Made by a program: the position numbers and the translations under genes. A stretch of DNA of 64,000 bases, taken from Emcibacter nanhaiensis. GTDB lineage: Bacteria; Pseudomonadota; Alphaproteobacteria; Sphingomonadales; Emcibacteraceae. Numbering within the stretch: the stretch's first letter is position 1; each line of letters starts with the position of its first letter. A model generated the notes under the pieces. It had not been told where the DNA came from, did not search any database, and saw nothing but the letters and a program-made list of their open reading frames with translations. The stretch lies in NCBI RefSeq assembly GCF_006385175.1, contig NZ_VFIY01000018.1, positions 62,001 through 126,000 of the forward strand, written 5' to 3'. This document shows, in pieces, positions 217-20,059 of the stretch.

Positions 217-2043
217 TTACTCCACCGTCACCGATTTGGCCAGGTTGCGGGGCTGGTCCACATCGGTGCCTTTGGCAACGGCGACATGATAGCTGAGCAG
301 CTGCACCGGGATGGCATAGAGCAGCGGTGTGACGAACTCATCCAGCATGGGGAGCGCAATGGTGGCCTCGGCATCGTGGCCGTTGGCTTGTGAGCCTTCC
401 TCGTCGGTGATGAAGATCACCCGGCCTTTGCGGGCAATCACTTCCTGCATGTTGGAGACGGTTTTCTCGAACAGCCGTCCGGTCGGGGCGATGACAATGA
501 TCGGCACCAGCTCGTCAATGAGCGCGATCGGGCCGTGTTTCATTTCCCCGGCGGCATAACCTTCGGCATGGATATAGGAGATTTCCTTGAGCTTCAGCGC
601 CCCTTCCATGGCGATGGGATATTCCGGGCCGCGGCCCAGATAAATCACATCCCGGGCCTTGGACATGTCGTCAGCCAGCGCCTCGATGGCTTCGTCATGG
701 TTCAGCACCTCGGCCATGCGGGCCGGTACTTCGGTCAGCGCATTGACCAGACGTTCTTCCTCGGCATGATCGATCTTGCCGCGCGCCTTGGCGACCGCAA
801 TGGACAGGCAGGCGAGCACGCTGAGCTGGCAGGTGAAGGCCTTGGTCGAGGCGACGCCCACTTCGGGACCGGCATGGGTCTGCAGCACGATGTCGCTTTC
901 CCGCTCCATAGAGCTCTGCGGCACATTGACGATGGTCAGGATATGCTGGCCCTGGGACTTGGCGTATCTGAGCGCGGCCAAAGTATCGGCGGTCTCCCCG
1001 GACTGGGAGATGAAAATGGCGAGCCCGCCCGGCGGCATCACCGCCTCGCGGTAGCGGAATTCGGAGGCGATATCCACCTCCACATTGATGCGGGCCATCT
1101 GCTCGAGCCAGTATTTGGCGACCATGCCGGCGTAAAAGCTGGTGCCGCAGGCGATGATGGTCACCCGCTCGATGGCGGCGAGGTCAAAGGGAAATTCCGG
1201 CAATGTGGTGGTGCCGTGCAGCGGATCCACCATGGTGGCGATGGTCTGGCCGACCACGGTCGGCTGCTCGTAAATCTCTTTCAGCATGAAATGGCGATAG
1301 TTGCCCTTGTCGATCATGCCGCCGGACACGGAAGCGATGGTCACCGGCCGGATCACTTCCTTGCCGGTTTCGTCATAAATCCGCGCACTCTCGCGGGTCA
1401 GTTCGACCCGGTCGCCCTCTTCCAGGTAGACGATGCGGTTGGAAAGGTCCGAGAGCGCGATGGCGTCGGAGCCGAGATACATTTCACCGTCGCCGTAGCC
1501 GACCACCAGCGGGCTGCCGCGGCGGGCGCCGATCATCAGGTCGTCTTCGCCATCAAAGATAATGGCGAGACCGAACGCCCCTTCCAGCCGTTCAATGGCG
1601 GCCTTGGCCGCGTCACGCGGCGCCATGCCTTTGTCCAGCATGCTGGTGATCAGGTGGACGATGGTCTCGGTATCGGTTTCGGTCTCGAACACATGACCCT
1701 CGGCGGTCAGTTCCTCGCGCAGTTCGCGGAAATTCTCGATAATGCCGTTGTGCACAGCGGCGACGCGCGGGGTGGCATGGGGATGGGCATTGACTTCGGT
1801 CGGGGCACCATGGGTGGCCCAGCGGGTATGGCCGATGCCGATCACGCCCGGCAGCGGGGCGTCTGCAAGACGGGCCTCAAGGTTCTTGAGCTTGCCCTCG
1901 GCCCGGCGCCGGTCGATGCTTTTGCCGTCGAACAGGGTGGCGATGCCCGCACTGTCATAACCGCGATATTCCAGCCGACGCAGACCGTCGAGAATACGGG
2001 GCGTGACCTCTTCCTTGCCGATGATACCGATAATGCCGCACAT
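217..2043 (-). CDS. glmS: Glutamine--fructose-6-phosphate aminotransferase (isomerizing)
   Basis: Makes glucosamine-6-phosphate from fructose-6-phosphate and glutamine, the first step to UDP-GlcNAc for peptidoglycan, lipopolysaccharide and exopolysaccharide. The 608 residues match the usual length. The protein begins MCGIIGI, so Cys2 is the N-terminal nucleophile of the glutaminase domain (about residues 1-220). Two SIS sugar-isomerase domains follow, with 'SQSGETADT' in the first, and the protein ends in the family signature DVDQPRNLAKSVTVE. It lies 26 bp downstream of glmU on the same strand and probably shares its transcript. No glmS ribozyme is expected or seen in this gram-negative setting. 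Confidence 0.97.
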   Translation of the reverse strand: MCGIIGIIGKEEVTPRILDGLRRLEYRGYDSAGIATLFDGKSIDRRRAEGKLKNLEARLADAPLPGVIGIGHTRWATHGAPTEVNAHPHATPRVAAVHNGIIENFRELREELTAEGHVFETETDTETIVHLITSMLDKGMAPRDAAKAAIERLEGAFGLAIIFDGEDDLMIGARRGSPLVVGYGDGEMYLGSDAIALSDLSNRIVYLEEGDRVELTRESARIYDETGKEVIRPVTIASVSGGMIDKGNYRHFMLKEIYEQPTVVGQTIATMVDPLHGTTTLPEFPFDLAAIERVTIIACGTSFYAGMVAKYWLEQMARINVEVDIASEFRYREAVMPPGGLAIFISQSGETADTLAALRYAKSQGQHILTIVNVPQSSMERESDIVLQTHAGPEVGVASTKAFTCQLSVLACLSIAVAKARGKIDHAEEERLVNALTEVPARMAEVLNHDEAIEALADDMSKARDVIYLGRGPEYPIAMEGALKLKEISYIHAEGYAAGEMKHGPIALIDELVPIIVIAPTGRLFEKTVSNMQEVIARKGRVIFITDEEGSQANGHDAEATIALPMLDEFVTPLLYAIPVQLLSYHVAVAKGTDVDQPRNLAKSVTVE

Positions 2044-2069
2044 TGCTTTTTATCCTCTAGATACTCTTT

Positions 2070-3398
2070 TTATTTCTTTTGCTTTTCACGAAACTTCAGG
2101 GCCCAGCCGCCCAGTTCCTTCTGGGTCGCCCGGGTCACCGCCAGCGCATCAGCAGAAACCTCGCGGGTCACCACGCTGCCGGCGCCGACAATGGCGCCCT
2201 CGCCGATGGTGACCGGCGCCACCAGCGACGTGTTGGAACCGATGAAGGCCCCCGCGCCGATGTCGGTTTTGAACTTGTTGAAGCCGTCATAGTTGCAGGT
2301 GATGGTGCCGGCGCCGATGTTGGCACCCTCACCCACCCGCGCATCGCCGATATAGGTGAGATGGCTGACCTTGGCGCCCTTCTCGATGGTGGATTTCTTC
2401 ACCTCGACAAAGTTGCCGATCTTGGCCCCTTCGCCGATGTCGGCGGCGGGACGCAGCCGGGCAAACGGCCCGATTGACGCCCCTTCATGAACGGTTGCCC
2501 CTTCGAGATGGGAGAAACTGTGGATCTTGACACGGTCTTCCACCGTTACACCGGGACCGAAAAACACATTGGGACCGATCACCACATCACGGCCTACCCG
2601 TGTATCATGGGCGAAAAACACCGTGTTCGGGTCGATCAGGGTCACCCCGTCAGCCATAAACTGGTCGCGCTTGCGGCGCTGGAACACGGCTTCGGCCTCG
2701 GCCAGTTCCTTGCGGCTGTTGACCCCCATAACCTCGTCTTCATGGGCTTCGACCACGCTGCAGATCAGGCCCCTGCTGCGGGCGATTTCCACGATGTCGG
2801 TGAGGTAATATTCCTGGGAGGCATTGTCGTTGCCGACCTGATCGAGCAGGGTGAACAGCTCCCTGCCGTCCACCGCCATGATGCCGGAGTTGCAGAGATT
2901 GATCTGGCGCTGCTCGTCACTCGCATCCTTGTGCTCGACAATGGCTTCCAGTTCGCCGGCGTCATTTACGACCAGACGCCCGTACGCCTTGGTGTCGGCC
3001 GGACGAAAACCCAGTACCACAACAGAGGCGTCCCGACGCGCCTCGACCATGGCCTGCAAGGTCTGCTCGGTCAGCATCGGCACATCGCCGTACAGGATCA
3101 GCACATTGCCGTCGAAGCCCTTGAGCGCGTCCCGGGTCACCTGGACCGCATGGCCGGTGCCGAGCTGCGGCTCCTGGACCACAATTTCAGCCACATTTCC
3201 GACGGCCGCTTCGACCTGTTCCTTGCCGGCGCCGACCACAATAACGCGGCGCTTCGGGTTCAGCGGCTCCAGCGTGTCGATCAGGTGCATCAGCATGGGA
3301 TGGCCCGCCAGCGGATGCAGCACCTTGTGGGTGTCGGACTTCATGCGGGTCCCCTTGCCCGCCGCGAGAATAATGACCGCAAGATCAGAAGAGCTCAT
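2070..3398 (-). CDS. glmU: Bifunctional GlcNAc-1-phosphate uridyltransferase / glucosamine-1-phosphate acetyltransferase
   Basis: Catalyses the last two steps to UDP-GlcNAc. The N-terminal nucleotidyltransferase domain carries LAAGKGTRMKSDTHKVLHP near residue 13, and the C-terminal half is a left-handed beta-helix of hexapeptide repeats. I place the start at the ATG that gives MSSSDLAVIILAAG, 442 residues, close to the usual 450-460. The frame is open for 27 more codons upstream, but that extension has no counterpart in the family and no convincing ribosome binding site. The gene is divergent from gph and upstream of glmS. Its product could feed the WecB-like epimerase of the exopolysaccharide region about 36 kb away. 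Confidence 0.95.
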   Translation of the reverse strand: MSSSDLAVIILAAGKGTRMKSDTHKVLHPLAGHPMLMHLIDTLEPLNPKRRVIVVGAGKEQVEAAVGNVAEIVVQEPQLGTGHAVQVTRDALKGFDGNVLILYGDVPMLTEQTLQAMVEARRDASVVVLGFRPADTKAYGRLVVNDAGELEAIVEHKDASDEQRQINLCNSGIMAVDGRELFTLLDQVGNDNASQEYYLTDIVEIARSRGLICSVVEAHEDEVMGVNSRKELAEAEAVFQRRKRDQFMADGVTLIDPNTVFFAHDTRVGRDVVIGPNVFFGPGVTVEDRVKIHSFSHLEGATVHEGASIGPFARLRPAADIGEGAKIGNFVEVKKSTIEKGAKVSHLTYIGDARVGEGANIGAGTITCNYDGFNKFKTDIGAGAFIGSNTSLVAPVTIGEGAIVGAGSVVTREVSADALAVTRATQKELGGWALKFREKQKK

Positions 3399-3563
3399 GA
3401 TTTTATATCTTTTTCCGTTATAACTTATTACAAATGACAGGGTCGGATCGTCATCCGTTATTGTCCCATTTTGGAGCAATGTGCCACAAGAACTTTAAAA
3501 TTTATATAACCCAATTGTTTATTTTTTATTCCGGGTTATCTGTCAGGGATTAGTGTCAACTTT

Positions 3564-4238
3564 ATGTCCAATAAACTGAACGCCGTGATTTTCGACCTGG
3601 ACGGGACCCTTGTGGACAGCGCCCTGGACCTGACCGCCACCCTCAACCATGTACTGCATCTGGAAGGCCGCCCGCAGATCAGCATTGACGAAGTGCGCCA
3701 TATGGTCGGCCACGGCTCCCGCGCCCTGATCATCAAGGGTTTTGATCATTCGGGCGAAGTGCCGCCGGAAGCGGAACTGGACCGGCTGCAGAAAATCTTC
3801 CTCGACTATTACAACGATCATATTGCCGACCACACCATCAGTTTTCCCGGACTGTGGGAGGCTCTGACCGAGCTGAAAGGCAGCGGCGTCAAGCTGGCGG
3901 TCTGCACCAACAAAGTCGAAGACCTGAGCCACAAGTTATTGAAATCCCTGGGCCTGGACGATTTTTTCTGTGCGCTGACCGGCGGCGACAGCTTCGACTA
4001 TAAAAAGCCCGACCCGCGGCATCTGCTGTCCACGCTGGAGCTGATGGGCTGCGAGGTGGACGGCGCGGTGATGGTCGGCGATTCCGCCAATGACATTGAT
4101 GCCGCCCGCAATGCCGCCATTCCGGTGATCGGCGTGACTTTCGGCTATACCCCGGTGCCGGTGACAGAGCTCAGCCCGGACCGGGTGATTGATCATTATG
4201 ACAAGCTGATCCCGGCGCTTCAGGACCTTATGGATTAG
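3564..4238 (+). CDS. gph: Phosphoglycolate phosphatase, HAD superfamily
   Basis: Predicted cytoplasmic HAD hydrolase of 224 residues. Motif I is FDLDGTLVDS at about residues 10-19, with the Asp nucleophile and the Asp acid/base two residues later. Motif II/III is represented by the VCTNK segment and the conserved Lys of DYKKPDP, and motif IV by VMVGDSANDIDAA. Gph-type enzymes remove 2-phosphoglycolate formed by DNA repair or oxygenase reactions. HAD substrate specificity is hard to assign by eye, so another phosphoester substrate is possible. The stop codon overlaps the convergent nucleotidyltransferase gene by four bases. No strong Shine-Dalgarno site is seen before the ATG. Confidence 0.85.
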   Translation: MSNKLNAVIFDLDGTLVDSALDLTATLNHVLHLEGRPQISIDEVRHMVGHGSRALIIKGFDHSGEVPPEAELDRLQKIFLDYYNDHIADHTISFPGLWEALTELKGSGVKLAVCTNKVEDLSHKLLKSLGLDDFFCALTGGDSFDYKKPDPRHLLSTLELMGCEVDGAVMVGDSANDIDAARNAAIPVIGVTFGYTPVPVTELSPDRVIDHYDKLIPALQDLMD

Positions 4239-5305
4239 TGCGTTTCGCCCCGAAGGCGGCGCAGAGACTTGGTCGCCAGATGTTTGACCAGCAGTCCGGC
4301 CGGCATGCGCAGCCAGTGGGACCGCATATAAAGGATCTTGGAGGCGATCTGGAACAGGCGGCTGGTCGGCGGTTTCATCACCAGCGGCACCATCCGGTCC
4401 ATCATCCCGAGGACCAGGGCATTCGGCGCATAACAGCCGGTTTTTTCAAGAACTTCGCCGGGCACCGCCGTCCCTAGGATCAGTGCACAATAGCGCAGGC
4501 AGTAAAACAGCGGCCGGCCGAGCCCCAACTCGTCGGTGCGGTCCAGCAGCCGGTCCCAGAAACCCTCCATCCGGGCAAATTCCGAAATCATGTCATGCTG
4601 TTCCAGCAGGTTCCTGAGCGAAACCGCGATTACCCCGTCATGGAACAGATGCACGGCGCTGTGCAGCAGCATGTCTTCCGGCGACAGGGTATAGAGGTTG
4701 CCGTCGACCGGTTCGATCTCTGCCAGCAGTTTCAAAGCGTCCACCGTCAGGCGGCCGGTCAGCGGCAGAATGGTGTGGTGCACATCCACGGTCATGCCCC
4801 GGTCCGGGTGATAGAGCGGCGGCAGTTCGTGGGCCCATTCCCGGTAATATCTCTGGTCGTAATCATCCTCGACACTATGCACCCAGCCGGCATCCAGCAG
4901 CATCTGTTCCACCGTCTCCAGGTCTTTGCGGTCGACCATAATGTCCACATCGGAGCTGACCCGGCCTGTGGCGGCCGTGAGATCGCGGGCGATATAGGCC
5001 CCGCCCTTGAGCACGACAATCGGCTCTTCAAAACCGAACAGGGCGCGGCGGATCCGGTTCAGCTCCCACATCAGGCGCCGCTGGCGCGACTGGGCGTCGA
5101 TCTCGGCCGACAGGAAAATATCCTGCACCCGCTCCGGCAGCCGGTCCCACAGGCCCTGGTCGCGGGCCTCTGCCGCCAGCCGGCCGGTCAGGCTGTTGAC
5201 CCGGGCTTCATAAAGGCAGCTGTTCCACTGTGCAACGTTGAAGCCGAGCATCACCGCCGGGTCCTGCAACACATCAATGACAAGGGAGCCGCTGGTCTCA
5301 GTCAT
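4235..5305 (-). CDS. Nucleotidyltransferase family protein (NTP_transf_5-like), HPr-rel-A cassette
   Basis: A 356-residue protein with the polymerase-beta-type nucleotidyltransferase core: LKGG at residues 99-102 followed by SDVDIMV at 118-124, where two Asp residues would bind metal. The rest is helical, as in the NTP_transf_5 family often found beside exosortase and exopolysaccharide genes. Its start overlaps the end of the HprK-like kinase gene by eight bases, so the two are probably translated together as the last genes of a four-gene leftward operon. The target of nucleotidyl transfer is unknown; a protein or a small molecule are both possible. The family call is firm, the role is not. 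Confidence 0.8.
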   Translation of the reverse strand: MTETSGSLVIDVLQDPAVMLGFNVAQWNSCLYEARVNSLTGRLAAEARDQGLWDRLPERVQDIFLSAEIDAQSRQRRLMWELNRIRRALFGFEEPIVVLKGGAYIARDLTAATGRVSSDVDIMVDRKDLETVEQMLLDAGWVHSVEDDYDQRYYREWAHELPPLYHPDRGMTVDVHHTILPLTGRLTVDALKLLAEIEPVDGNLYTLSPEDMLLHSAVHLFHDGVIAVSLRNLLEQHDMISEFARMEGFWDRLLDRTDELGLGRPLFYCLRYCALILGTAVPGEVLEKTGCYAPNALVLGMMDRMVPLVMKPPTSRLFQIASKILYMRSHWLRMPAGLLVKHLATKSLRRLRGETH

Positions 5306-6248
5306 CGCCTGCCCCCGCCGTCTCGCTCATGAAGCGCTCGACCAGCTTGATGCCCTCTTCCAGGTTGGGATAGATGATCTCGCAGCAGGCGGCCTTGTCG
5401 GCGATTTCGGTCATGACCCGGAACGACCGCTCGCCGATGTCACCGTAGTTGGCCGAGGACATCACCAGTTTGAAGAACGCCATGCTGCGGGTGATGGGTT
5501 TGATTTCGGGCGTGGCGCCGGGCCGGAAAGAGGGCAGGATCACCGCCCCGGCCCCGGCCCGCTCATACATGCGGTTGATGCTCTCCGCCGGCGGGCGCAT
5601 ATAGCAGATGGTGCCCTTGGGTGTGCCATGATATTCCGGGCTGAAGGTGGTGCCGGGCGCGGCCCAGTCCTTCATCACCGGGATGGATTCATTTTTCAGC
5701 GATACCGGCCGCGGGTAAGGTACAAATTCCCCGGTATCGATATCGGCCAGGCCAAATTCATCGGAAAACAGCCGCCAGCCGGCGAAGGACAGACCGGCGG
5801 CCAGGGTGCTTTTGCCGCTGCCCGAGGCCGCCGGCATAATGACCACGCGGCCATTCTTTTCCACCACCCCGGCATGAAACAGGAGCAAATTCTTGCAACC
5901 GACGGCAATCTGCCAGTTAAGCCCCATTTCCGTCGCCACCATGCCCAGTTCCGCCGGCAGCGGGATAAAGGCATCCTTCATCATGGTATCGACACAGGCC
6001 TGGGGCTTGATATAGCGGCGGTAGAAATTACGGCCGTACACGCTGAGGTGGTTGTTGGCGATGGCCCCTTCCGGCCAGGCAGGATAGCCGCCATAAAGAT
6101 GGCAGAATTCTTCCCGGATATTGGGGAACAGAATGCGGACCTGGGTGACGAACGGACCGACTTCGAGAGCCAGTCCCTGCGTCGTCATCAGTTTCCCCAA
6201 CTGCCTGTCAGGAATTTCGGAAAGGTTGACAGTCTTTTTATTGGCCAT
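5298..6248 (-). CDS. HprK-related kinase A
   Basis: A 316-residue protein related to the C-terminal catalytic domain of HPr kinase/phosphorylase. A P-loop ASGSGKSTLA lies at residues 141-150 and is followed by LFSDEFGLAD about 20 residues later, the position of the HPr kinase Asp. The N-terminal half is unrelated to HPr kinase. Proteins of this type ('HprK-related kinase A') are known to occur next to a PqqD-like protein and a nucleotidyltransferase, exactly as here, and usually not next to an HPr gene, so the substrate is unlikely to be HPr. The start overlaps the PqqD-like gene by eleven bases. Phosphorylation of the Tat-signal protein upstream is a guess from position only. Confidence 0.85.
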   Translation of the reverse strand: MANKKTVNLSEIPDRQLGKLMTTQGLALEVGPFVTQVRILFPNIREEFCHLYGGYPAWPEGAIANNHLSVYGRNFYRRYIKPQACVDTMMKDAFIPLPAELGMVATEMGLNWQIAVGCKNLLLFHAGVVEKNGRVVIMPAASGSGKSTLAAGLSFAGWRLFSDEFGLADIDTGEFVPYPRPVSLKNESIPVMKDWAAPGTTFSPEYHGTPKGTICYMRPPAESINRMYERAGAGAVILPSFRPGATPEIKPITRSMAFFKLVMSSANYGDIGERSFRVMTEIADKAACCEIIYPNLEEGIKLVERFMSETAGAGDD

Positions 6249-6537
6249 ATGTGGGTTCGATCAGTCCCATTTTGTCGAATTCGGCCATAGTCTGACGGAT
6301 ATTCAGCCGGATGTCTTCAGAAATTTTTTCTTCCATCACTCTTTCCAGTTCGTTGCAGACCTGGTCTAGTGTTGACGGCTTTTCCTCAATGATGGCAAGA
6401 ATTTCCCGGGCGAAGATATTCATGGCCTGGGTGTGACCGGACCTTGGATCAAAGATGACATAGGCGTCATCCCAGTTTTTCCATAAAAAACCGGCTGTAT
6501 CCCCGACACGGAATACAGCCGTTTCATATAAAGACAT
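6238..6537 (-). CDS. PqqD-like protein of the HPr-rel-A system
   Basis: A 99-residue protein with the PqqD fold: an N-terminal beta segment containing AYVIFDPRSGHTQAMN, then helices with ILAIIEEKPSTLDQVCNEL and a C-terminal helix ending in FDKMGLIEP. PqqD and related RiPP recognition elements bind leader peptides and hand them to modifying enzymes. I chose the ATG preceded by GGAAG; a GTG four codons upstream has no ribosome binding site. It lies between a small exported protein and the HprK-like kinase, which it overlaps. The context suggests it delivers a peptide or protein to the kinase or nucleotidyltransferase, but this is inference. Confidence 0.82.
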   Translation of the reverse strand: MSLYETAVFRVGDTAGFLWKNWDDAYVIFDPRSGHTQAMNIFAREILAIIEEKPSTLDQVCNELERVMEEKISEDIRLNIRQTMAEFDKMGLIEPTYGQ

Positions 6538-6584
6538 TTTATCTTCCACGGGTCAGGCGACTGATAAATATATCAGTGGTCGTG

Positions 6585-7001
6585 CTAGTTGCCGCCATAG
6601 AACGTCTTGTTGATATAATCAACGGCATCAACGGACTGCAGACAGGAACATTCATCGCCATTGTGTTTCTTCAGGTAATCCCAGTGATCTTCGTTGGAAT
6701 CATCAAAATGCGCTGTCCGTTCCGGATGCTCATACTCGTGATCGGCAGACATCCAGCTCCGGTGTTCCCGGGGGATTTGAAGCTCTTCATTTCCCGCGTA
6801 GGACTTCTGTTTTACATTGGATACACAAGCTGCGCCGGACACTGCAATCCGGTTCGTCGCCATGGCATTTCCTGTGCTCAGGGTCAGGGCCAGCGGAGCC
6901 AGCGCAGCGCCGGTTTTCAGCACCTTACGGCGGGACTCTCTCTTCGCCTGCTCCTGCTCAGAAGCCTGGACTGCGGTGTTTTTACCTTTAAAATCTTCCA
7001 T
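6585..7001 (-). CDS. Small Tat-signal protein, putative substrate of the HPr-rel-A cassette
   Basis: A 138-residue protein not assigned to a named family. Residues 23-29 read SRRKVLK, a good twin-arginine motif, followed by a hydrophobic stretch and an AMA cleavage site near residue 48, so it should be exported folded by the Tat pathway. The mature part is only about 90 residues, polar and rich in His, Asp and Glu, with Cys59 and a CSC pair at 118-120 and a C-terminal GGN. The start is set by AGAGG eight bases upstream; the in-frame ATG ten codons earlier has none. It is the first gene of the leftward cassette, 47 bp before the PqqD-like gene. Export, metal binding or modification are all possible; none is shown. 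Confidence 0.65.
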   Translation of the reverse strand: MEDFKGKNTAVQASEQEQAKRESRRKVLKTGAALAPLALTLSTGNAMATNRIAVSGAACVSNVKQKSYAGNEELQIPREHRSWMSADHEYEHPERTAHFDDSNEDHWDYLKKHNGDECSCLQSVDAVDYINKTFYGGN

Positions 7002-7426: not shown

Positions 7427-8734
7427 TTGGACCAGAAAAGTTCCTACAATTCCCCCCTGAACGAATTAAGACCGCTGATTTATTCCCTGCCGGTCGCGAT
7501 TTTGCTGGTTGTCCTGACCTGGTTCGAAACCGTTTCCGTCGCCAACGCCATTATCATCACCGCCCTGATTTTTGTCAGCATGTTATACCTGAACCGGCGT
7601 TACGAAGAGGAAATTGCCGAGCTCAGGCGAAAAACCATTCTCCAGGAACATGAGAGCCGGGACACCCGGGCGTCGCAGTTCCTGCTGACCAACATCATGG
7701 AAAACCTGACCGACCCCTTCCTGCTGCTGGATTCCCGCAAAAGAATTCTGATGGCCAACAAGTCTGCCATCGATATGCTGGGGGCCGACATCCTGCGCAA
7801 GGATATCTCTCTGTTTATCCGCAACCCAGATGTCAACAATGCGATCCGCAAGACAATTCGCACCGGCAAAACCCATACGGTGGAATATATGCACGGCAAC
7901 GTGGTACCGCGAAACATGCTGGTTCGCCTGCATGCCCTGGACATCCAGGGCAGTGAGGACAACCAGGAAAATAAACGCTATATCTTCCTGTCCATTTACG
8001 ACATCACCCTCATCAAACAGGCGGAACAGATGCGGGTTGATTTTGTCGCCAATGCCAGCCACGAGCTCCGAACCCCTCTGGCCAGCATTCTCGGTTTCGT
8101 GGAAACCCTGCAGGGACCGGCCAAGAATGACCTGCAGGCGCAGGAGCGCTTTCTCAGAATCATGCACGATGAGGCCAGTCGCATGACACGACTGGTCGAC
8201 GACCTGCTGTCCCTGTCCAAGATCGAACGGGAAGCCCACATCCCGCCGGAAGGAACCGTTCACCTGCCGACCCTGATCAACAGCGTGCTCGAAACCCTCG
8301 ACATGCGGCTCAAGGAACGCAACATGACCGTCACTGTCAGCAATCCGGATAACGTGGGGAATATAACGGGTGATTTTGACCAGTTAACCCAGGTAGCCCA
8401 GAACCTGGTCGACAACGCCATTAAATACGGTCGGGAGAATACCGCCATTGACGTGGTGCTGAAAAAACACGTCAGCGAATTCCCCATCCACGAGGAAAGC
8501 GTGAGCATCGCCATTACAAACCGCGGCAACGGTATTCCGGCCGAACATATCCCGCGGTTGATGGAAAGATTTTACCGGGTTGATACGGCTCGCTCCAGGA
8601 GCCTCGGCGGCACCGGTCTGGGACTCGCCATCGTAAAACACATTATACAACGTCACAAAGGTCATATTTTGTTTGAAAGCGAAGTCAATGAATATACCCG
8701 CGTTACGGTTACTCTCCCCTACAAATCAGGATAA
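7427..8734 (+). CDS. phoR: Phosphate regulon sensor histidine kinase PhoR
   Basis: Membrane sensor kinase of the PhoR/PhoB system. Two membrane segments lie at about residues 17-35 and 38-56 with only a very short external loop, as in PhoR, followed by a PAS domain (about 88-195). The HisKA domain carries NASHELRTP with the phosphorylated His at 212, and the ATPase domain has the G box GGTGLGLAIV near 404. The start is TTG with AAAGG seven bases upstream. The gene stands before the PHO box and the pst operon, while phoB is last, so kinase and regulator flank the transporter genes. It presumably senses phosphate through the Pst complex and PhoU. Confidence 0.93.
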   Translation: MDQKSSYNSPLNELRPLIYSLPVAILLVVLTWFETVSVANAIIITALIFVSMLYLNRRYEEEIAELRRKTILQEHESRDTRASQFLLTNIMENLTDPFLLLDSRKRILMANKSAIDMLGADILRKDISLFIRNPDVNNAIRKTIRTGKTHTVEYMHGNVVPRNMLVRLHALDIQGSEDNQENKRYIFLSIYDITLIKQAEQMRVDFVANASHELRTPLASILGFVETLQGPAKNDLQAQERFLRIMHDEASRMTRLVDDLLSLSKIEREAHIPPEGTVHLPTLINSVLETLDMRLKERNMTVTVSNPDNVGNITGDFDQLTQVAQNLVDNAIKYGRENTAIDVVLKKHVSEFPIHEESVSIAITNRGNGIPAEHIPRLMERFYRVDTARSRSLGGTGLGLAIVKHIIQRHKGHILFESEVNEYTRVTVTLPYKSG

Positions 8735-8794
8735 TGCATTGATTATAAACAGTTATTAGACTGAACAAAAATATCATACACCGCCCCCGCCAGA

Positions 8795-8827
8795 CTGTCA
8801 CAAAACTTTAACAAAACTGACGCATAT
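8795..8827 (+). promoter_or_regulatory. PHO box: three 11-bp direct repeats upstream of pstS
   Basis: The sequence reads CTGTCACAAAA, CTTTAACAAAA and CTGACGCATAT end to end, three repeats of exactly 11 bp. The 11-bp period and the CTGTCA core match the known PhoB binding unit. A further CTGTCAT lies at 8847-8853. The box is about 150 bp before pstS and after the end of phoR, so PhoB probably activates pstSCAB-phoU-phoB from here under phosphate limitation. Confidence 0.75.
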
Positions 8828-8972
8828 GAGTAATTGATGCTGCATACTGTCATCGCAAGTTATGGCAAATATGTATATCGGAATGGCCTGCATATCCTGT
8901 CAGGAGTGGGGGCGGAAAATACTCATCAAGCTGGAAACGGGACTTTCCATGCTTAAATTCGGAGATATAAAA

Positions 8973-10007
8973 GTGCTGAAAAAATCCCTAATGACTCTCG
9001 TAGGAGCCGGTGCCCTCGCCATGTCTGTGGCTGGAGCCGCCGAAGCCCGGGACCAGATCCGTATTGTAGGTTCATCCACAGTATTCCCTTTTGCAACTGC
9101 AGTGGCAGAGGAATTCGGCCAGACCACTTCCTTTAAAACACCGGTTGTAGAGAGCACTGGTTCAGGCGGCGGCCTGAAGCTGTTCTGCGCCGGTGTTGGT
9201 GAAGGCCATCCGGACATCACCAATGCCTCCCGCCGCATCAAGAGCTCCGAGATCGAACTCTGCGCCTCCAACGGCGTGAAGGAAATCGTGGAAGTCAAAG
9301 TCGGTTACGACGGCATTGTGCTGGCCAACTCCAAGGAATCGCCGCAGATGGAACTGAGCCTGCGCGACATCTGGCTCGCCCTGGCCAAGGAAGTTCCGGT
9401 TGGCGGCTCCATGGTTGAAAACCCCTACCGCTACTGGAATGAAGTAAACCCCGCCCTGCCGAAGAAGAAAATCGAGGTCATGGGCCCGCCGCCGACGTCC
9501 GGTACCCGCGACGCCTTTGTTGAGCTGGCCATGGAAGGCGGCTGCAAAACCTTCCCGGAAATTGCCGCCCTCAAGAAAAGCGACAAAAAGAAATATAAAG
9601 CCGTTTGCCACACCATCCGTGAAGATGGCGCCTACATCGAAGCCGGTGAAAACGACAACCTGATTGTCGGCAAACTGCAGGCTAATCCGGATGCCTTGGG
9701 CATCTTCGGATACAGCTTCCTGGACCAGAACAGCGACGTTATCCAGGGCAGCATCGTCAATGGCGAACTGCCGACCTTCGAGGAAATTGCCGCAGGCCGG
9801 TATCCGGTTTCCCGCTCACTCTATTTCTATGTGAAAAAAGCACATGTGGGTAAAATCCCGGGTATTGAAGAATATCTCGCAGAATTCACCAGCGACAAGG
9901 CGATGGGTGAGTTCGGATATCTCGCAGAAAAAGGCCTGATCCCGATGCCGGAAGAAGAGCTTGCAAAATACCGTGAGGATGCGAAAAACCTTACACCGAT
10001 GAAGTAA
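8973..10007 (+). CDS. pstS: Phosphate ABC transporter substrate-binding protein PstS
   Basis: Periplasmic phosphate receptor. After a signal peptide (MTLVGAGALAMSVAGAAEA) the mature protein starts DQIRIVGSSTVFPFA, with the SSTVFP phosphate loop, and later shows ESTGSGGGLK and GPPPTSGTRDAF, both typical of PstS. I use the GTG start with GGAG eight bases upstream (344 residues). An ATG 24 bases earlier and one at 8862 are in frame and give longer N-termini, so the start is not certain. It is the first gene behind the PHO box and is separated from pstC by a hairpin that probably lets pstS be expressed more strongly than the rest. Confidence 0.95.
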   Translation: MLKKSLMTLVGAGALAMSVAGAAEARDQIRIVGSSTVFPFATAVAEEFGQTTSFKTPVVESTGSGGGLKLFCAGVGEGHPDITNASRRIKSSEIELCASNGVKEIVEVKVGYDGIVLANSKESPQMELSLRDIWLALAKEVPVGGSMVENPYRYWNEVNPALPKKKIEVMGPPPTSGTRDAFVELAMEGGCKTFPEIAALKKSDKKKYKAVCHTIREDGAYIEAGENDNLIVGKLQANPDALGIFGYSFLDQNSDVIQGSIVNGELPTFEEIAAGRYPVSRSLYFYVKKAHVGKIPGIEEYLAEFTSDKAMGEFGYLAEKGLIPMPEEELAKYREDAKNLTPMK

Positions 10008-10018
10008 TCATTGTAACA

Positions 10019-10047
10019 TGCCGGGGCGGAATCACCCCGCTCCGGCA
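10019..10047 (+). terminator. Hairpin between pstS and pstC (partial terminator or mRNA stabiliser)
   Basis: The sequence TGCCGGGGCGG-loop-CCGCTCCGGCA forms a stem of about eleven pairs with one G-T pair, starting eleven bases after the pstS stop. It has no T run, so it is more likely an RNA stability or attenuation element than a full terminator. Such elements commonly raise the amount of a binding-protein transcript over the membrane subunits. Confidence 0.55.
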
Positions 10048-10097
10048 AGTTCTTTGTTGACCTATTGTTTAAATTATATTGAGCTCACAGGGCCCCC

Positions 10098-11480
10098 ATG
10101 AACATCTATTTACTTATTCTGGTTCTTGGCATTATTTCTACCGTGTCCTTTGTCTATGGACGCAAAAAGGCCCTGATGTCCGTGAAGGGGCAAATCAGTC
10201 AGCTCCATTCCCTGCCCAGCCATTACGGCTGGTATGCGGCGATGGTCGGACTTGTACCCGGTCTGTTCATTCTTGTTGTCTGGATCATTTTCGGCTCCAC
10301 CGTCATTGATAAGATGGTTCTTTCCCGAATGGCCGAAACAGTGCAGAGCATGAGCCGGTTTGAAGTCAATATTCTGATGAACGACATCCGGAACCTGGCT
10401 GCCGGGGACGCCATATCCGGCCCCGCAACGCCGGAGCTGAGAGATGCAGCAGATTATTTCAACCATATTTCAAAATCGACTTTCACTGTGGTCTCCCTGT
10501 CCGCGATTTCAGTCACGGCACTCTTTACGGCTTTTGGCATCTACAGGATCGACCCGGAACTCCGCTCCCGCAACCGGCTGGAATCCTTCATCCTGTTTTC
10601 GCTCGTCGCCTGTTCCGTGATCGCCATCCTGACCACCATCGGCATTGTATCTTCGCTGGTTTTCGAAACCATGAGATTTCTGGAAAAAGTGCCGCTGAGC
10701 GAATTCCTGTTTGGCCTGCAGTGGAGTCCGCAGACGGCGCTCCGGGCTGATCAGGTTGGCAGCTCCGGCTCCTTTGGTGCCATCCCCCTGATTACCGGCA
10801 CCTTGCTGATCACCTTCATTGCGTTGCTGGTCGCAGCCCCGGTGGGACTATTGTCTGCCGTCTATATGACTGAATTTGCCGACCGGAAAACACGCGGCTT
10901 TTTCAAACCCCTGCTGGAAATCCTGGCCGGAATCCCGACTGTGGTATATGGCTTTTTTGCCGCCCTCGTCGTGGCGCCGGCCATTCGCAATACCGGCGAT
11001 CTGGTGGGGCTGGAGATTGCCTCGGAAAGCGCGCTGGCCGCCGGCATCGTCATGGGCATTATGATCATCCCCCTGATGTCTTCCCTGTCCGATGACGTGA
11101 TCTCCGCGGTTCCCCAGAGCCTGCGTGACGGATCCTATGGCCTGGGCGCTACCAAGACAGAGACGATCCTGAATGTGATATTGCCCGCCGCCCTGCCCGG
11201 CATCGTCAGCGCCTTCCTGCTGGCGGCCTCCCGGGCGATCGGGGAAACCATGATTGTGGTGATGGCCGCCGGCATGGCCGCCAACCTGACCGCAAACCCG
11301 CTGGAAGCCGTGACTACCGTCACGGTGCAGATTGTTGCCCTGCTCACCGGAGACCAGGAATTTGACAGCGCCAAGACCCTGTCCGCCTTTGCACTGGGAC
11401 TGGCCCTGTTCATCATTACATTGTCCCTGAACTTCCTGGCCCTGTATGTGGTACGAAAATACAGAGAACAATATGACTGA
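10098..11480 (+). CDS. pstC: Phosphate ABC transporter permease PstC
   Basis: Inner-membrane subunit of the phosphate importer, 460 residues. It is longer than the enterobacterial protein because of an N-terminal region with two extra membrane segments (MNIYLLILVLGIISTV and GLVPGLFILVVWIIFG) before the transport domain. The domain contains the ABC-permease coupling loop around SLRDGSYGLGATKTETILNVILP and IGETMIVVMAAGMAANLT. The long form is known from alphaproteobacteria. The stop overlaps the pstA start by eight bases, suggesting coupled translation. Confidence 0.94.
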   Translation: MNIYLLILVLGIISTVSFVYGRKKALMSVKGQISQLHSLPSHYGWYAAMVGLVPGLFILVVWIIFGSTVIDKMVLSRMAETVQSMSRFEVNILMNDIRNLAAGDAISGPATPELRDAADYFNHISKSTFTVVSLSAISVTALFTAFGIYRIDPELRSRNRLESFILFSLVACSVIAILTTIGIVSSLVFETMRFLEKVPLSEFLFGLQWSPQTALRADQVGSSGSFGAIPLITGTLLITFIALLVAAPVGLLSAVYMTEFADRKTRGFFKPLLEILAGIPTVVYGFFAALVVAPAIRNTGDLVGLEIASESALAAGIVMGIMIIPLMSSLSDDVISAVPQSLRDGSYGLGATKTETILNVILPAALPGIVSAFLLAASRAIGETMIVVMAAGMAANLTANPLEAVTTVTVQIVALLTGDQEFDSAKTLSAFALGLALFIITLSLNFLALYVVRKYREQYD

Positions 11481-12810
11481 TATGTCCGAAAATTCATCCG
11501 CTGAAACCATTCAGGGCCCGACTGCCTGGCAGGGTGACACCATGCGCAAACGCGTAGCCAAGCGGTATCGCAAGGAAAAAATCTTCAAGGCCCTGGGCTT
11601 GGCCGGATTGAGCCTGGCGTCTCTGGCCCTTGCCGTGTTGCTCGGCAGCATCCTCTATATCGGCCTCAGCGGTTTCGCCACCACCAGCATCGAGCTGGAT
11701 ATTACCCTGGATCAAAAGGTCATCGGTGATATTGCCAACCGGACCGAGACGGAACGCGCCGACATGTTGCAGCAGGCGAATTACAACAAACTGATCCGTG
11801 ACAGCCTGCGCGCCAAATTTCCGGAAGCCAAAAGCCGCCGCGACGTCTTTGCCCTGATGCGCCTGATCAGCAACGGCGCCCGCGAGGAGATACGCAACCT
11901 CCTGGTCAAGAACCCTGGCCTGGTCGGAGAAACCGTCACCATTGACCTGCCGGCCTCCAGTAATGTGGATATGTTCGTGAAGGGCGAGATCAGCAGGGAT
12001 GTTCCCCAGACAAACCGAAAAATCACCGACCAGCAGATTGCCTGGATCGACCAGCTTGACGCTGAAGGACGCATTTCCAGAGGATTTAACTGGCGCTTTC
12101 TGTCCTCCGGCGATTCCCGGGAACCGGAACTGGCCGGTGTCTGGGGCGCTGTGGTCGGTTCCTTTTATACCCTGATGGTCTGCTTCCTGGTGGCGTTTCC
12201 CGTCGGTGTGGCTTCCGCCATCTATCTCGAGGAATTTGCCCCGCAAAACAGATGGACGGACCTGATCGAGGTCAACATCAATAACCTGGCTGCCGTGCCG
12301 TCCATCGTGTTCGGACTTCTCGGCCTGGCCATTTTCCTCAATGTCTTCAACATGCCGCGCTCCGCCCCGATGGTGGGCGGCCTGACCCTGGCGCTGATGA
12401 CATTGCCGACAATCATTATTGCCGCCCGCGCCGCCATCAAGGCTGTCCCGCCCTCCATTCGCGACGCCGCCACCGGCCTGGGCGCCTCCCCGGTACAGAC
12501 GGTTTTCCATCACGTCCTGCCGCTCAGCATGCCCGGCATCCTGACCGGAACCATCATCGGCATGGCCCAGGCGCTCGGGGAGACCGCTCCACTGCTGATG
12601 ATCGGCATGGTGGCCTTCATCGTGGATATTCCCCAGGGTATTACGGATGCTGCCACAGCGCTGCCGGTGCAGATCTTCCTGTGGGCGGACAGCCCTGAAC
12701 GTGGTTTCCTGGAAAAAACCTCGGCTGCAATTATCGTATTGCTTGGATTTCTTGTTATTATGAACGGTCTGGCTATCTGGCTGCGACAGAAGTTTGAAAA
12801 ACGCTGGTAA
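11473..12810 (+). CDS. pstA: Phosphate ABC transporter permease PstA
   Basis: Second membrane subunit of the phosphate importer, 445 residues. It has an N-terminal extension with one membrane segment (about residues 35-60) and a soluble periplasmic region before the permease domain, as in the DUF3333-containing PstA of many alphaproteobacteria. The coupling loop is SIRDAATGLGASPVQTVFHH. I start at the ATG overlapping the pstC stop rather than nine codons further upstream, because the upstream part would lie entirely inside pstC. pstB follows after six bases. Confidence 0.94.
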   Translation: MTDMSENSSAETIQGPTAWQGDTMRKRVAKRYRKEKIFKALGLAGLSLASLALAVLLGSILYIGLSGFATTSIELDITLDQKVIGDIANRTETERADMLQQANYNKLIRDSLRAKFPEAKSRRDVFALMRLISNGAREEIRNLLVKNPGLVGETVTIDLPASSNVDMFVKGEISRDVPQTNRKITDQQIAWIDQLDAEGRISRGFNWRFLSSGDSREPELAGVWGAVVGSFYTLMVCFLVAFPVGVASAIYLEEFAPQNRWTDLIEVNINNLAAVPSIVFGLLGLAIFLNVFNMPRSAPMVGGLTLALMTLPTIIIAARAAIKAVPPSIRDAATGLGASPVQTVFHHVLPLSMPGILTGTIIGMAQALGETAPLLMIGMVAFIVDIPQGITDAATALPVQIFLWADSPERGFLEKTSAAIIVLLGFLVIMNGLAIWLRQKFEKRW

Positions 12811-12816
12811 AGTAAG

Positions 12817-13626
12817 ATGAACATTATGAACGTACAAAACGAAGAACAGACCATTCCGCACACCAATAAAACTGCCAAGATGCGGGCCCGGAATGTCAAT
12901 GTCTATTACGGGGAAACCCAGGCCATCAAGAACGTCAGCCTGGACATCAACCCTGATGAGGTCACTGCTCTGATCGGCCCGTCCGGCTGCGGCAAGTCTA
13001 CCTTCCTGCGTTGCCTTAACCGGATGAACGATACGATCCCGATCTGCCGGGTCACAGGTGACATCAGCCTGGATGGCGAGGATATCTATGGCAAAAGGGT
13101 TGATGTGGTGCAGCTTCGCGCCCGGGTCGGCATGGTGTTCCAGAAACCGAACCCCTTCCCCAAATCAATCTATGATAATGTGGCCTATGGCCCGCGCATC
13201 CACGGCCTGGCCAACAATAACGCGGACCTGGATGAAATCGTCTTTACCAGCCTGCAGAAGGCCGGCCTGTGGGAGGAAGTCAAGGATCGCCTGGACACCC
13301 CCGGCACCGCCCTCTCCGGCGGTCAGCAACAGCGTCTGTGTATTGCCCGCACCATCGCTGTGAACCCGGAAGTTATCCTGATGGATGAACCCTGTTCCGC
13401 TCTGGACCCTATCGCCACGGCGATTATCGAAGAACTGATTGATGAACTGAAAGGCCGTTATGCCATCGTGATCGTCACGCACTCCATGCAGCAGGCGGCG
13501 CGTGTCTCCCAGAAAACGGCTTTCTTCCACCTTGGTGACCTTGTTGAGTATGACGATACGGTGAATATCTTCACCAATCCCAGGGAAGAAAAAACCAAAG
13601 ACTATATTACAGGACGCTATGGCTAA
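12817..13626 (+). CDS. pstB: Phosphate ABC transporter ATP-binding protein PstB
   Basis: ATPase that powers phosphate import and takes part in PhoR signalling. All ABC motifs are visible in 269 residues: Walker [10 protein letters not shown] at 54-62, Q loop in [12 protein letters not shown], signature [13 protein letters not shown], Walker [14 protein letters not shown] and the switch His in [19 protein letters not shown](I/V)YDNVAYG is typical of PstB. It lies in the pst operon between pstA and phoU. Confidence 0.97.
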
Positions 13627-13663
13627 TCGCCGCAGCCGGTCCGCATTTTAGGACAAAACAAAC

Positions 13664-14392
13664 ATGACAGACAGTCACATCGTTGCCTCATTTGATGAAA
13701 ACCTGAACGACCTCCGCAAGAAAATCGTCCAGATGGGAAATCTGGTCGAGGAACAGTTCAAACTGGCGACCGAAGCGCTGGTGGAGAAAGACAAGACACT
13801 GGCGGAACAGGTCCGCAAAAACGACAAGGCCATCGACCAGCTGGAACTGGAAATCGAAAGGTTCGCCGTTGAGGTGATTGCCCTGCGCGCCCCGGTCGCC
13901 GACGACCTGCGCGAGGTTATCTCCTCTATCAAGATCAGCTCCGCCCTGGAGCGCATGGGCGACTATGCCAAAAACATGGCCAAGCGCCTGACCGTGCTGA
14001 GCAAGATCGACCACCTGCCGGGCAGCACCACCATCCTGTCGCAAATGGTCAAGATCACCCGGACCATGATCACGGACGTCCTGGACGCCTATGTCAAACG
14101 GGACACCAACCTGGCCATTGAAGTCTGGAACCGGGACCAGGAGGTCGATGCCCTCTATGACAGCCTGTTCCGCGAACTGCTGACCTATATGATGGAAAAG
14201 CCCCAGTATATCACCAGCGCGACACACCTGTTGTTCATTGCCAAGAATATTGAGCGCGCCGGCGACCAGACCACCAATATTGCAGAAATCGTTTATTACA
14301 TTACCGAAGGAGAGCTTCTTGAACTGAAGCGGCCGAAAAAGGATGACACCAGCTTCGCCGATTTGGGGGTAAGCAAAGAAGAGAACAAGTGA
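13664..14392 (+). CDS. phoU: Phosphate signalling complex protein PhoU
   Basis: A 242-residue all-helical protein of two repeated PhoU domains. Each repeat shows the metal-binding pattern: ALERMGDYAKNMAKR in the first half and IERAGDQTTNIAEIV in the second. PhoU links the Pst transporter to PhoR and switches the kinase off when phosphate is plentiful; its loss generally leads to uncontrolled uptake. The stop codon overlaps the GTG start of phoB. Confidence 0.95.
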   Translation: MTDSHIVASFDENLNDLRKKIVQMGNLVEEQFKLATEALVEKDKTLAEQVRKNDKAIDQLELEIERFAVEVIALRAPVADDLREVISSIKISSALERMGDYAKNMAKRLTVLSKIDHLPGSTTILSQMVKITRTMITDVLDAYVKRDTNLAIEVWNRDQEVDALYDSLFRELLTYMMEKPQYITSATHLLFIAKNIERAGDQTTNIAEIVYYITEGELLELKRPKKDDTSFADLGVSKEENK

Positions 14393-15087
14393 ATGCCATG
14401 AGTGCACATATCCTACTTATTGAAGACGACCAGAACCTGACGGAACTGGTCAGATATAATCTTGAACAGGAAGGCTTCAAAGTCACCTGTGAAGCGGACG
14501 GGGAAGACGGACTTCTGACCGCGATTGAAGAGGCGCCGGACCTGATCCTTCTGGACTGGATGCTGCCCAATCTTTCCGGTATTGAAATCTGTCGCAGGCT
14601 GCGCCGTGAGAATATTACCAAAAACATCCCGATCATCATGCTGACGGCCCGGTCCGAGGAAACCGACCGCATCCGTGGTCTGGAAACAGGTGCTGATGAC
14701 TATATCACCAAGCCCTTCTCGCCCAAGGAGCTGATTGCCCGCATCAACGCCATCCTGCGGCGGATCCGCCCGGCCCTGTCCGGTGAAACGCTGGAATATG
14801 CCGGCATCGTCATGGACACCGCCTCCCACAAGGTAGCCCGCGATGGCACTGCTTTGCACCTGGGCCCGACGGAGTACCGGATGCTGAAACACTTCATGGA
14901 AAATCCCGGCCGGGTTTTTTCCCGGGAACAGCTGCTGGACTCTGTATGGGGCAACGACATCTATGTCGAGTCCCGGACAGTCGACGTTCATATCCGCCGG
15001 CTCCGGAAAGCGCTCAATATCGGCGACACGCCCAACATCATCCGGACGGTCCGTTCCGCCGGATATGCCCTGGACAAAGATATCTGA
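14389..15087 (+). CDS. phoB: Phosphate regulon response regulator PhoB
   Basis: OmpR/PhoB-type activator. The receiver domain has the acidic pocket IEDD at residues 11-14, the phosphorylated Asp in LDWMLP at 56 and the conserved Lys in TKPFSPKEL. The winged-helix DNA-binding domain ends in the recognition helix region YVESRTVDVHIRRLRKAL. The GTG start overlaps the phoU stop; an ATG three codons later is an alternative. It is the last gene of the pst operon and is followed at once by a strong terminator, so it is probably autoregulated from the PHO box. Confidence 0.95.
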   Translation: MNAMSAHILLIEDDQNLTELVRYNLEQEGFKVTCEADGEDGLLTAIEEAPDLILLDWMLPNLSGIEICRRLRRENITKNIPIIMLTARSEETDRIRGLETGADDYITKPFSPKELIARINAILRRIRPALSGETLEYAGIVMDTASHKVARDGTALHLGPTEYRMLKHFMENPGRVFSREQLLDSVWGNDIYVESRTVDVHIRRLRKALNIGDTPNIIRTVRSAGYALDKDI

Positions 15088-15667: not shown

Positions 15668-16471
15668 TTATTTGACGGGACGGCCCCCTGCTGTTTTCAG
15701 CCCCGCCTCATTCAATATTTCATGAATATAGACTGCCGGTATGGCAAATGTGATGCCGGAAGGTGACTTCAGGGCATTTTCTTTTGTCCCCTTGACCTTC
15801 ACGCTGTTGATGACACCTTCCACCCTGCCGGTGATCGCGTCATAAAGCGGACTGCCGCTGTTGCCCGGATAGGCGGTCGCATCCAGCTGATAGACTTCAA
15901 AACGCGACTGGGTAATGATCTTGATGTCCAGATAGCGGGCCGAGGGCTGGGGAATAACATTGGGCGTGATCGCCGATACAATTCCCTGATGAGTGACCGG
16001 ATAAAGCCCCAGCACCGCGCCGATCGGATACCCGGTAAAGGCAATGGAAGTGCCCGGATCCAGCATGGCGCCGTTTCCCAGCTTGACTGCCGGAAGCGGT
16101 TCGCCCTCAATCTTGAGTAACGCCAGGTCATGCTGTTCATTGGTCTTGACAACCTGTGCCTGGCGCACATCAGGCAGGCGGCCGATGCCGGAAAGAACAA
16201 CGATGGTCTCTTTATCCGTCATATGGGCCGGATTTGGCAGCACATGGGCATTTGTGATGACGTAGTTGCCGTCATAGACAACGAAACCCGTTCCCCGCAA
16301 CACGTTCTGCGGCGCCCCCAAAGGATTGTGGGCGGCAATCCCCACGACAGACGGGGTCATCTTCTTCACCAGTTTCGGGAAATCCCTGTTATTGTCATGC
16401 GCGCTGCCGCCAGCTGTGAAGAAGACAGTCACAACCAGAAAAACAATGATGGAGCGAAATTTAGATTTCAT
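15668..16471 (-). CDS. Exported trypsin-like serine protease, exosortase-linked
   Basis: A 267-residue S1/HtrA-type protease domain without a PDZ domain. A signal peptide (FRSIIVFLVVTVFFTAGGSA) precedes the domain. The triad is visible as His in VITNAHVLP, Asp in EQHDLALLK and Ser in YPGNSGSPLYD. I start at MKSKFRS, where the signal peptide begins; the frame is open 85 codons further upstream but that part overlaps the exosortase gene and looks non-coding. It is the last gene of the leftward exosortase block, 31 bp after xrtA. Such proteases accompany exosortase A loci, but their target is not known. Confidence 0.8.
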   Translation of the reverse strand: MKSKFRSIIVFLVVTVFFTAGGSAHDNNRDFPKLVKKMTPSVVGIAAHNPLGAPQNVLRGTGFVVYDGNYVITNAHVLPNPAHMTDKETIVVLSGIGRLPDVRQAQVVKTNEQHDLALLKIEGEPLPAVKLGNGAMLDPGTSIAFTGYPIGAVLGLYPVTHQGIVSAITPNVIPQPSARYLDIKIITQSRFEVYQLDATAYPGNSGSPLYDAITGRVEGVINSVKVKGTKENALKSPSGITFAIPAVYIHEILNEAGLKTAGGRPVK

Positions 16472-16502
16472 AAGGTCATACCTGTTTTCCGGGACATCCT
16501 GA

Positions 16503-18098: not shown

Positions 18099-18157
18099 AG
18101 TTGTCGCATAAACAGGTTGCTAAACCGTTAGCCCGGCCGGTTTTTCTCGTTTTATTC

Positions 18158-19192
18158 CTAGCCAAGTGACCGGGCGATGAACGGTCCGAGGAAATTGGCC
18201 ACCGGCAACGGCAGCTTTCTCCAGGTTTTGATCATCAGCTGATACTTGGGATTCATCGGATTGACCTCCGGCACCTCCTGCCCCTCCCGCAGATAATATT
18301 CATAATGCAGGGGACGCGGCTCGAATCCCCAGTTCTTTTTAAAACTGAAGGAGCCGGTACCGTTCTTGCTGCGCCCGAAGTCAAAAATCTCGCAGCCCCG
18401 CTCGGAAACCGCCCGTTCCATGACGGACCAGTACATAAAATCATTGGCTGCATATTTGCGGGCGTCCAACGTGGCGCCGCCGTAATAAGGAAAGACCTCA
18501 TTGCGGAAATACAGGCTCATGACGCTGGCAATCGGCTGGCCGTCGGGTGTACAGACCGTCAGGATTTCACAATCCTTGCCGAATTCATCTTTCATAGCCT
18601 GGAACAGTTTCTTGGGAAAGACCGGCGTACCCAGGTTGCGCACGCTTTCCGCATAGAGCGGATAGAGACGTTCTACATCCTCGTCGATTTCCGCCCTGAG
18701 CTCGAACTTGATTCCCTTGCGCACCATGGCCCGCTGTTTGCGGGGGATGGCTTTCATATTTTCTTCGTTGTCGGTGGAAAGTTCCTTGCGGAATACCGAA
18801 TACATATCCTCCTTGCAGGGCCAGTCTTCGTGCACCCGGTCCATGTTGCGGAATTCCACGCAATCCACCCTGAGCTCCTCGGCCAGCCGGGCGCATTCCT
18901 CATCCAGCAGGGCGAGAACCTCGTCATTGTCAAAGAGCGGGCCGCCATTGGTGGCGAAAGCCACGGAAATCAGGCTGTTGCCGAACAGGCTACTCTTGAC
19001 ATGCACCAGCGGCACCAAGCCCCGGATTTTGCCCTCATCCTCCACACAGACATAATAGAGCGGATGCCCCATGCTGACGTGCACCGCCCGCCCCCAAGCC
19101 ATCATATGGGCCGCCGTGGCAGAAGGATGGGCCAGGACATAGTCGTTCCACGCCGTTGGGTCCCCGTTGATGTCGTATAATTTTACCTGCAT
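18158..19192 (-). CDS. FemAB-family protein, XrtA/PEP-CTERM system-associated
   Basis: A 344-residue GNAT-fold protein of the FemAB class, with SVMSLYFRNEVFPYYGGATLD and FDFGRSKNGTGSFSFKKNWG, the substrate-side motif of the exosortase-linked subgroup. FemAB proteins transfer amino acids from aminoacyl-tRNA to cell-wall precursors; the exosortase-linked members have no proven substrate. I start at MQVKLYD, preceded by AGGGG; an ATG six codons earlier lacks this site. It lies between xrtA and the deacetylase in the usual order of such loci. Confidence 0.88.
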   Translation of the reverse strand: MQVKLYDINGDPTAWNDYVLAHPSATAAHMMAWGRAVHVSMGHPLYYVCVEDEGKIRGLVPLVHVKSSLFGNSLISVAFATNGGPLFDNDEVLALLDEECARLAEELRVDCVEFRNMDRVHEDWPCKEDMYSVFRKELSTDNEENMKAIPRKQRAMVRKGIKFELRAEIDEDVERLYPLYAESVRNLGTPVFPKKLFQAMKDEFGKDCEILTVCTPDGQPIASVMSLYFRNEVFPYYGGATLDARKYAANDFMYWSVMERAVSERGCEIFDFGRSKNGTGSFSFKKNWGFEPRPLHYEYYLREGQEVPEVNPMNPKYQLMIKTWRKLPLPVANFLGPFIARSLG

Positions 19193-19211
19193 ACCCGCCC
19201 CTGTAAGCAAA

Positions 19212-20054: not shown

Positions 20055-20059
20055 GAGAT

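Follow-up and report, generated by a model that had tools for sequence, protein, structure and literature searches.

A Tat-signal protein as constant partner and candidate substrate of HPr-rel-A enzymes in Emcibacter nanhaiensis and other Proteobacteria

We describe a small protein with a twin-arginine translocation (Tat) signal that accompanies the enzymes of the HPr-rel-A cassette, found in a 64,000-nucleotide stretch of Emcibacter nanhaiensis DNA (contig NZ_VFIY01000018.1, positions 62,001 to 126,000; hereafter the window). The genes form a leftward operon (7001-4235) that encodes, in this order, the Tat-signal protein, a PqqD-like protein (PqqD_rel_X), an HPr kinase-related protein (HprK_rel_A) and a PF14907 nucleotidyltransferase of the NTP_transf_5 type. 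The constant association between Tat protein and cassette is well supported; the protein is highly likely to be the partner or substrate of the cassette enzymes, and very probably the thing that is modified before export. Judging from sequence and from analogy with known systems, we consider it on balance probable that the four genes constitute a protein-modification and export unit resembling those of ribosomally synthesized and post-translationally modified peptides (RiPPs), with the small protein as the precursor. The original prediction for this DNA had described such a partly overlapping four-gene operon and proposed the small protein as a candidate substrate; its coordinates, strand and families were confirmed, and the small protein, as the constant partner, stands as the best candidate.

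Association of the Tat protein with the cassette

In a search of 60 related genomes, a homologue of the Tat protein was present in 24, and in all 24 it lay directly upstream of, and co-oriented with, the PqqD and HprK genes. Because both the gene order and a homologous Tat protein recur in every genome with a match, the operon is more than a chance arrangement. Across the order (198 genomes), a profile built from the Tat-protein alignment (A3) detected a homologue in 59 of the 90 genomes with HprK_rel_A and in none of the 108 genomes lacking the kinase, so the small protein, looked for without the cassette, was not met there (Fisher p ~9e-28, a nominal value, the genomes being related). Among the 289 genomes sampled from the class, 9 had HprK_rel_A above its cut-off, as had 44 of the 299 sampled from the phylum, and HPr-rel-A enzymes occur in many Proteobacteria, including Sphingomonas, Nitrosomonas, Massilia, Thiobacillus and Methylomonas, among others. 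No relative of the Tat protein was found in the viral contigs searched.

To this we added 52 loci with 5 kb flanks and 80 named loci from GTDB genomes, and counted the 126 cassettes for which 900 nt or more of upstream sequence was available; they come from Alpha-, Beta- and Gammaproteobacteria and other lineages. An automatic rule called a Tat gene where a frame of 70-320 aa, with twin arginines followed by a hydrophobic stretch near the start codon, stopped just before PqqD. A Tat-signal gene lay upstream of PqqD in 118 of the 126 cassettes, 107 of them found by the rule and 11 by eye, while the rule matched 10.7% of 1242 random windows from the same loci. Inspection by eye of all 107 matches revealed three wrong frames (L118, L129 and L203), but a true Tat gene lay close to each of them. 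L211 has KR in place of RR in its motif, and for L187 the N-terminal end was not visible. The arrangement by which a RiPP system is recognized, a recurring precursor gene beside a RiPP recognition element (RRE) and tailoring enzymes, is thus found in 118 of 126 cassettes. Of the remaining eight, six have their Tat partner at another position: downstream of the nucleotidyltransferase gene in L088 and L193, with two tandem copies in the latter, and elsewhere in the genome in L110, L115, L125 and L137. Cassettes without such a small protein are therefore very rare.

Departures from the usual order offer further hints of how the parts may work together. In three split cassettes (G537, G401 and G360) the Tat and PqqD genes remain adjacent while the HprK and nucleotidyltransferase genes are located apart from them, an indication that the Tat protein is bound directly by PqqD. 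Two precursors accompany a single cassette in G034, G631 and L193, with second distal copies in family f5, as leader-defined substrates would predict. In L113 (4938-7061), HprK_rel_A and NTP_transf_5 form one open frame of 706 codons, an apparent fusion that argues for consecutive action of both enzymes.

Conserved features of the partner proteins and enzymes

The window Tat protein (138 aa; 6585-7001, minus strand, as are all features of the operon) matched no Pfam or NCBIfam family, apart from a weak, below-cut-off match to PF10518 (12.3 bits). The SRRKVLK motif of the original prediction is present, together with a hydrophobic stretch and an AMA cleavage site, and TatC is encoded in the same genome (235 bits). 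In an alignment of 21 relatives, the signal region (residues 1-48; 6858-7001) has the invariant residues R21, R24, R25, L28, K29, G31, A32, P36, T40 and A48. Invariant in the mature part are Cys59, its first cysteine (6825-6827), Cys120 and Ser123, with H106 nearly so. Cys120 and Ser123 belong to the sequence SCLQS (residues 119-123; 6633-6647), which among relatives of the window protein takes the form [ST]CxxS. Two further features that had been singled out did not hold up: the CSC pair (C118-S119-C120) includes Cys118, which is not conserved, while S/T119 and Cys120 belong, with Ser123, to the motif above, and the C-terminal glycine pattern is not conserved either.

Similar ends recur in other lineages: one group outside the Alphaproteobacteria has SCWxS (C171 and S174 in 16 of 16), and sphingomonad partners have TCFASLQMPR (cysteine and serine in 20 of 20). 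Nitrosomonas-like partners keep the serine and replace the C-terminal cysteine with alanine (S140, A143 and S146 in 7 of 7). The 48 beta- and gammaproteobacterial partners have a different core, C..SG..S.N.S, followed by SPGYW and LNA, in which two serines are nearly invariant (48/48 and 47/48). The expectation that one C-terminal pattern would recur at the same place thus held for alphaproteobacterial and some other lineages, as [ST]CxxS, and failed for the beta- and gammaproteobacterial partners. Each lineage nonetheless retains at least one invariant serine. Mature parts are not alignable between lineages, whereas the signal region is (RR.LLK..A..P..xTLxS/G..A.A), and a loose pattern for one element of it, [TS][LVIFM]x(1-2)[SGPN], was present in 98 of 105 partners; in a small control, P..xTL was absent from four further Tat signals encoded in the E. 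nanhaiensis genome. Repeats are tolerated in the middle of the protein, whether acidic, Ser/His or Asn/Gly (L020, L265, L266 and L272). Seven partner proteins from other lineages, when scanned, matched nothing in Pfam and gave one meaningless NCBIfam match.

The three enzyme-side proteins, which the original prediction had taken for a known set, all score above the cut-offs of their families. The PqqD-like RRE protein (99 aa; 6238-6537; TIGR04353, 55.2 bits against a cut-off of 35; PF05402) more likely starts at ATG 6537, with a GGAAGA ribosome site, than at the alternative GTG 6549; it had no significant match among PDB sequences. Counted from the ATG, 47 bp separate it from the Tat gene, and it overlaps the kinase gene by 11 bp. 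The HprK-related kinase A (316 aa; 5298-6248; TIGR04352, 260.9 bits, cut-off 200) keeps His125, Lys146 (in Walker A), Asp163 and Glu164 in 19 of 19 aligned members, and its P-loop core aligned to the PDB HprK structure 1jb1, including the histidine, GxSGxGKS and DD (E 4e-4). Overlapping it by 8 bp, the gene at 4235-5305 encodes the NTP_transf_5 nucleotidyltransferase (356 aa; PF14907, 176.8 bits, 7e-52, cut-off 31.2), in which D119, D121, D174 and K100-G101 are invariant. Its AlphaFold2 model has a predicted local distance difference test score (pLDDT) of 93 and bears a weak resemblance to nucleotidyltransferases, among them ANT(2'') and TglT.

Variants of the locus were also observed. Two precursor genes per genome, in tandem or with the second distal beside a sigma-factor-like gene, are present in L265, L266, L193 and L259-L264. 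Four Sphingobium loci (L186, L201, L203 and L206) carry a gene for a GT4-like glycosyltransferase between the Tat precursor and PqqD, and in L102, L108, L116 and L120 a gene of about 550-750 aa, apparently tetratricopeptide-like, lies between the HprK and nucleotidyltransferase genes. More distant pairs of HprK-like and NTP_transf_5 proteins without an adjacent PqqD were seen in L095, L096 and L138; upstream of the last is a 70-aa protein that begins with KRELIKK and a hydrophobic stretch, perhaps another type of precursor.

Proposed modification and alternatives

In the mechanism we propose, the PqqD-like protein would bind the Tat signal peptide as a leader, and this peptide would later serve as the export signal. 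The PqqD-like protein would present the precursor to the enzymes, the HprK-like kinase would phosphorylate the conserved serine, in the window lineage Ser123 of SCLQS, and the NTP_transf_5 enzyme would then add a nucleotide or a sugar to the phosphate. Both steps would take place in the cytoplasm, after which the finished protein would be exported by Tat, and a disulfide may form outside between Cys59 and Cys120. Tat, unlike Sec, can translocate folded protein, and export of a folded protein therefore fits modification before export. We infer that PqqD binds the signal, and likewise infer the two reactions, the modified residue and the sequence of events; the parts of the proposal differ in strength. 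The double role of the signal peptide appears reasonably likely, because nothing but the signal is common to precursors that are otherwise dissimilar. Phosphorylation of the serine by the kinase is, by analogy and conservation, somewhat more probable than the alternatives to it, while for extension of the phosphate by the nucleotidyltransferase, proposed by analogy, we see about even chances. The analogies come from lasso peptides, in which the HprK-like kinases PadeK and ThcoK phosphorylate a conserved C-terminal serine and need a His-Lys-Asp-Asp motif, and in which PsmN of pseudomycoidin, annotated as a nucleotidyltransferase, is required for the hexose on phosphoserine, nucleotidylation not being excluded (PMC9266682).

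Several observations weigh against this proposal. The first three residues of the lasso-peptide motif are invariant in the window kinase (H125, K146 and D163), but the fourth is Glu164, where lasso-peptide kinases carry a second aspartate. The acceptor motif is not universal: beta- and gammaproteobacterial partners are without [ST]CxxS and keep a serine near the first cysteine instead. An AlphaFold2 prediction of the Tat protein from 21 sequences was poor (pLDDT 61) and not usable, and in the signal we identified no leader motif known from a characterized RRE type. Two cassettes, L111 and L221, had no Tat partner that we could find, and in four sphingomonad genomes (G502, G642, G657 and G705) a Tat gene stands by itself, far away from the cassette.

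The surroundings of the cassette bear on both its role and its target. It is flanked by glmS-glmU-gph (217-4238) and the phosphate regulon phoR-pstSCAB-phoU-phoB (7427-15087), an arrangement also conserved in the window's family and order and among many sphingomonads; control by phosphate is conceivable. About 9 kb from the cassette begins an XrtA/PEP-CTERM exopolysaccharide cluster (15668-30909) with exosortase, FemAB, ATPase, Wza, Wzz, CpsD and amidotransferase genes. In the phylum sample, HprK_rel_A was above cut-off in 23 of the 29 genomes whose XrtA was also above cut-off and in 21 of 270 others (nominal p ~4e-17, kinship ignored), and many loci outside the Alphaproteobacteria lie inside exopolysaccharide clusters, among genes for Wza, Wzz, CpsD, an XrtA-type ATPase or an amidotransferase. 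Because of this co-occurrence and these loci, a role of the cassette in the cell envelope, or in cell-surface polysaccharide or exopolysaccharide, is plausible. More tentatively, the partners might represent a widespread, undescribed set of Tat-exported modified proteins, with the Tat signal as a RiPP-style leader. Recognition by the PqqD-like protein would then tie serine phosphorylation, and its nucleotidyl or glycosyl extension, to the export of folded protein, and the XrtA exopolysaccharide or cell-surface system would be fed in this way.

The XrtA co-occurrence, the cluster neighbors and the Sphingobium glycosyltransferase gene could also mean that the target of the enzymes is an intermediate in exopolysaccharide synthesis, either a glycan or a lipid, with the Tat protein as an unmodified periplasmic partner in assembly or anchoring. 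We regard this as unlikely: to our knowledge, PqqD or the RRE is a peptide-binding element in every characterized case, PqqD stays with the Tat gene and not with the enzymes in the three split cassettes, the closest precedent for a kinase with a nucleotidyltransferase is peptide modification, and the co-occurrence statistic ignores phylogeny. A little less likely again is that the modified residue is a cysteine, such as Cys120 or Cys59, or some other residue rather than the conserved serine. In the window lineage both cysteines are, like Ser123, invariant, but the Nitrosomonas-like lineage dispenses with the C-terminal cysteine and keeps the serine, and HprK-type kinases are known to phosphorylate serine.

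Signal-binding chaperones are common for cofactor-bearing Tat substrates, and the PqqD-like protein might likewise be a Tat proofreading chaperone only, comparable to redox enzyme maturation proteins, while the kinase and nucleotidyltransferase regulate, for example, PqqD or another protein. The three split cassettes, with PqqD and Tat together, agree with this idea, but it leaves unexplained both the strict co-occurrence of the kinase and nucleotidyltransferase with the precursor and the invariant serine in otherwise dissimilar precursors, and we think it improbable. A toxin-antitoxin or defense module came into consideration through the nucleotidyltransferase model, which resembles the MenT/TglT toxin fold and has TglT (Rv1045) as its best PDB fold match (E 0.003; template modeling score 0.29-0.34). 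Comparable matches to antibiotic adenylyltransferases, however, indicate a general polymerase-beta-like core only, and we rejected the toxin reading of the enzyme since the fold matches reflect that general nucleotidyltransferase core; with synteny conserved in alphaproteobacterial families and no antitoxin-like gene in the operon, a module of this kind is very improbable. Modification of the Tat protein on its conserved serine remains our preferred reading.

Relation to known systems

The window kinase shares with HPr kinase/phosphorylase (HprK) a P-loop with the histidine, lysine and aspartate aligned to 1jb1. It differs in aligning over the core only, with no full-length similarity to HprK, in having glutamate for the second aspartate, and in being linked to a Tat protein and not to HPr. 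DUF2063/DUF2282 RiPPs likewise pair a RiPP-type precursor bearing an export signal with an RRE, but use a Sec signal and other tailoring enzymes (PMC12710340) in place of the Tat signal, kinase and nucleotidyltransferase seen here.

Phosphorylated lasso peptides (paeninodin with PadeK, ThcoK, SyanK, and pseudomycoidin with PsmK/PsmN) likewise combine an RRE, an HprK-like kinase and an annotated nucleotidyltransferase, with a conserved serine towards the C-terminus of the precursor. Their precursor, however, is a short peptide rather than a 138-aa Tat-signal protein, and their second catalytic aspartate is a glutamate here. Neither a lasso B2 leader peptidase nor an asparagine-synthetase-like C cyclase was found in the window operon, which contains no further open reading frame; the asnB-like gene of the window (26206-28065) is 20 kb off, in the XrtA cluster. 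Asparagine-synthetase-like genes beside cassettes in some lineages were considered as lasso cyclases and set aside, as by their neighbors they look like the exosortase-associated amidotransferase of an exopolysaccharide cluster. Some of these neighbors we take to be of the TIGR03087/TIGR03088 type.

Our literature search found no paper naming "HPr-rel-A" and no link between such kinases and Tat proteins; subscription papers lay outside it, so a prior description is possible. For HPr-rel-A enzymes, whose substrate was described neither in the databases nor in the papers that we searched, there is now a concrete candidate for nearly all, together with an acceptor serine predicted for several lineages and a connection to XrtA exopolysaccharide. 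Should the Tat signal indeed double as the leader, this would be a new way of making export wait for modification. Of the HPr-rel-A system itself (TIGR04352, TIGR04353 and PF14907), the kinase, PqqD_rel_X and the adjacent NTP_transf_5 protein are all present in the window, above cut-off and in the usual order. The NCBIfam names of that system mention no substrate, and the Tat precursor is what the present analysis adds to it.

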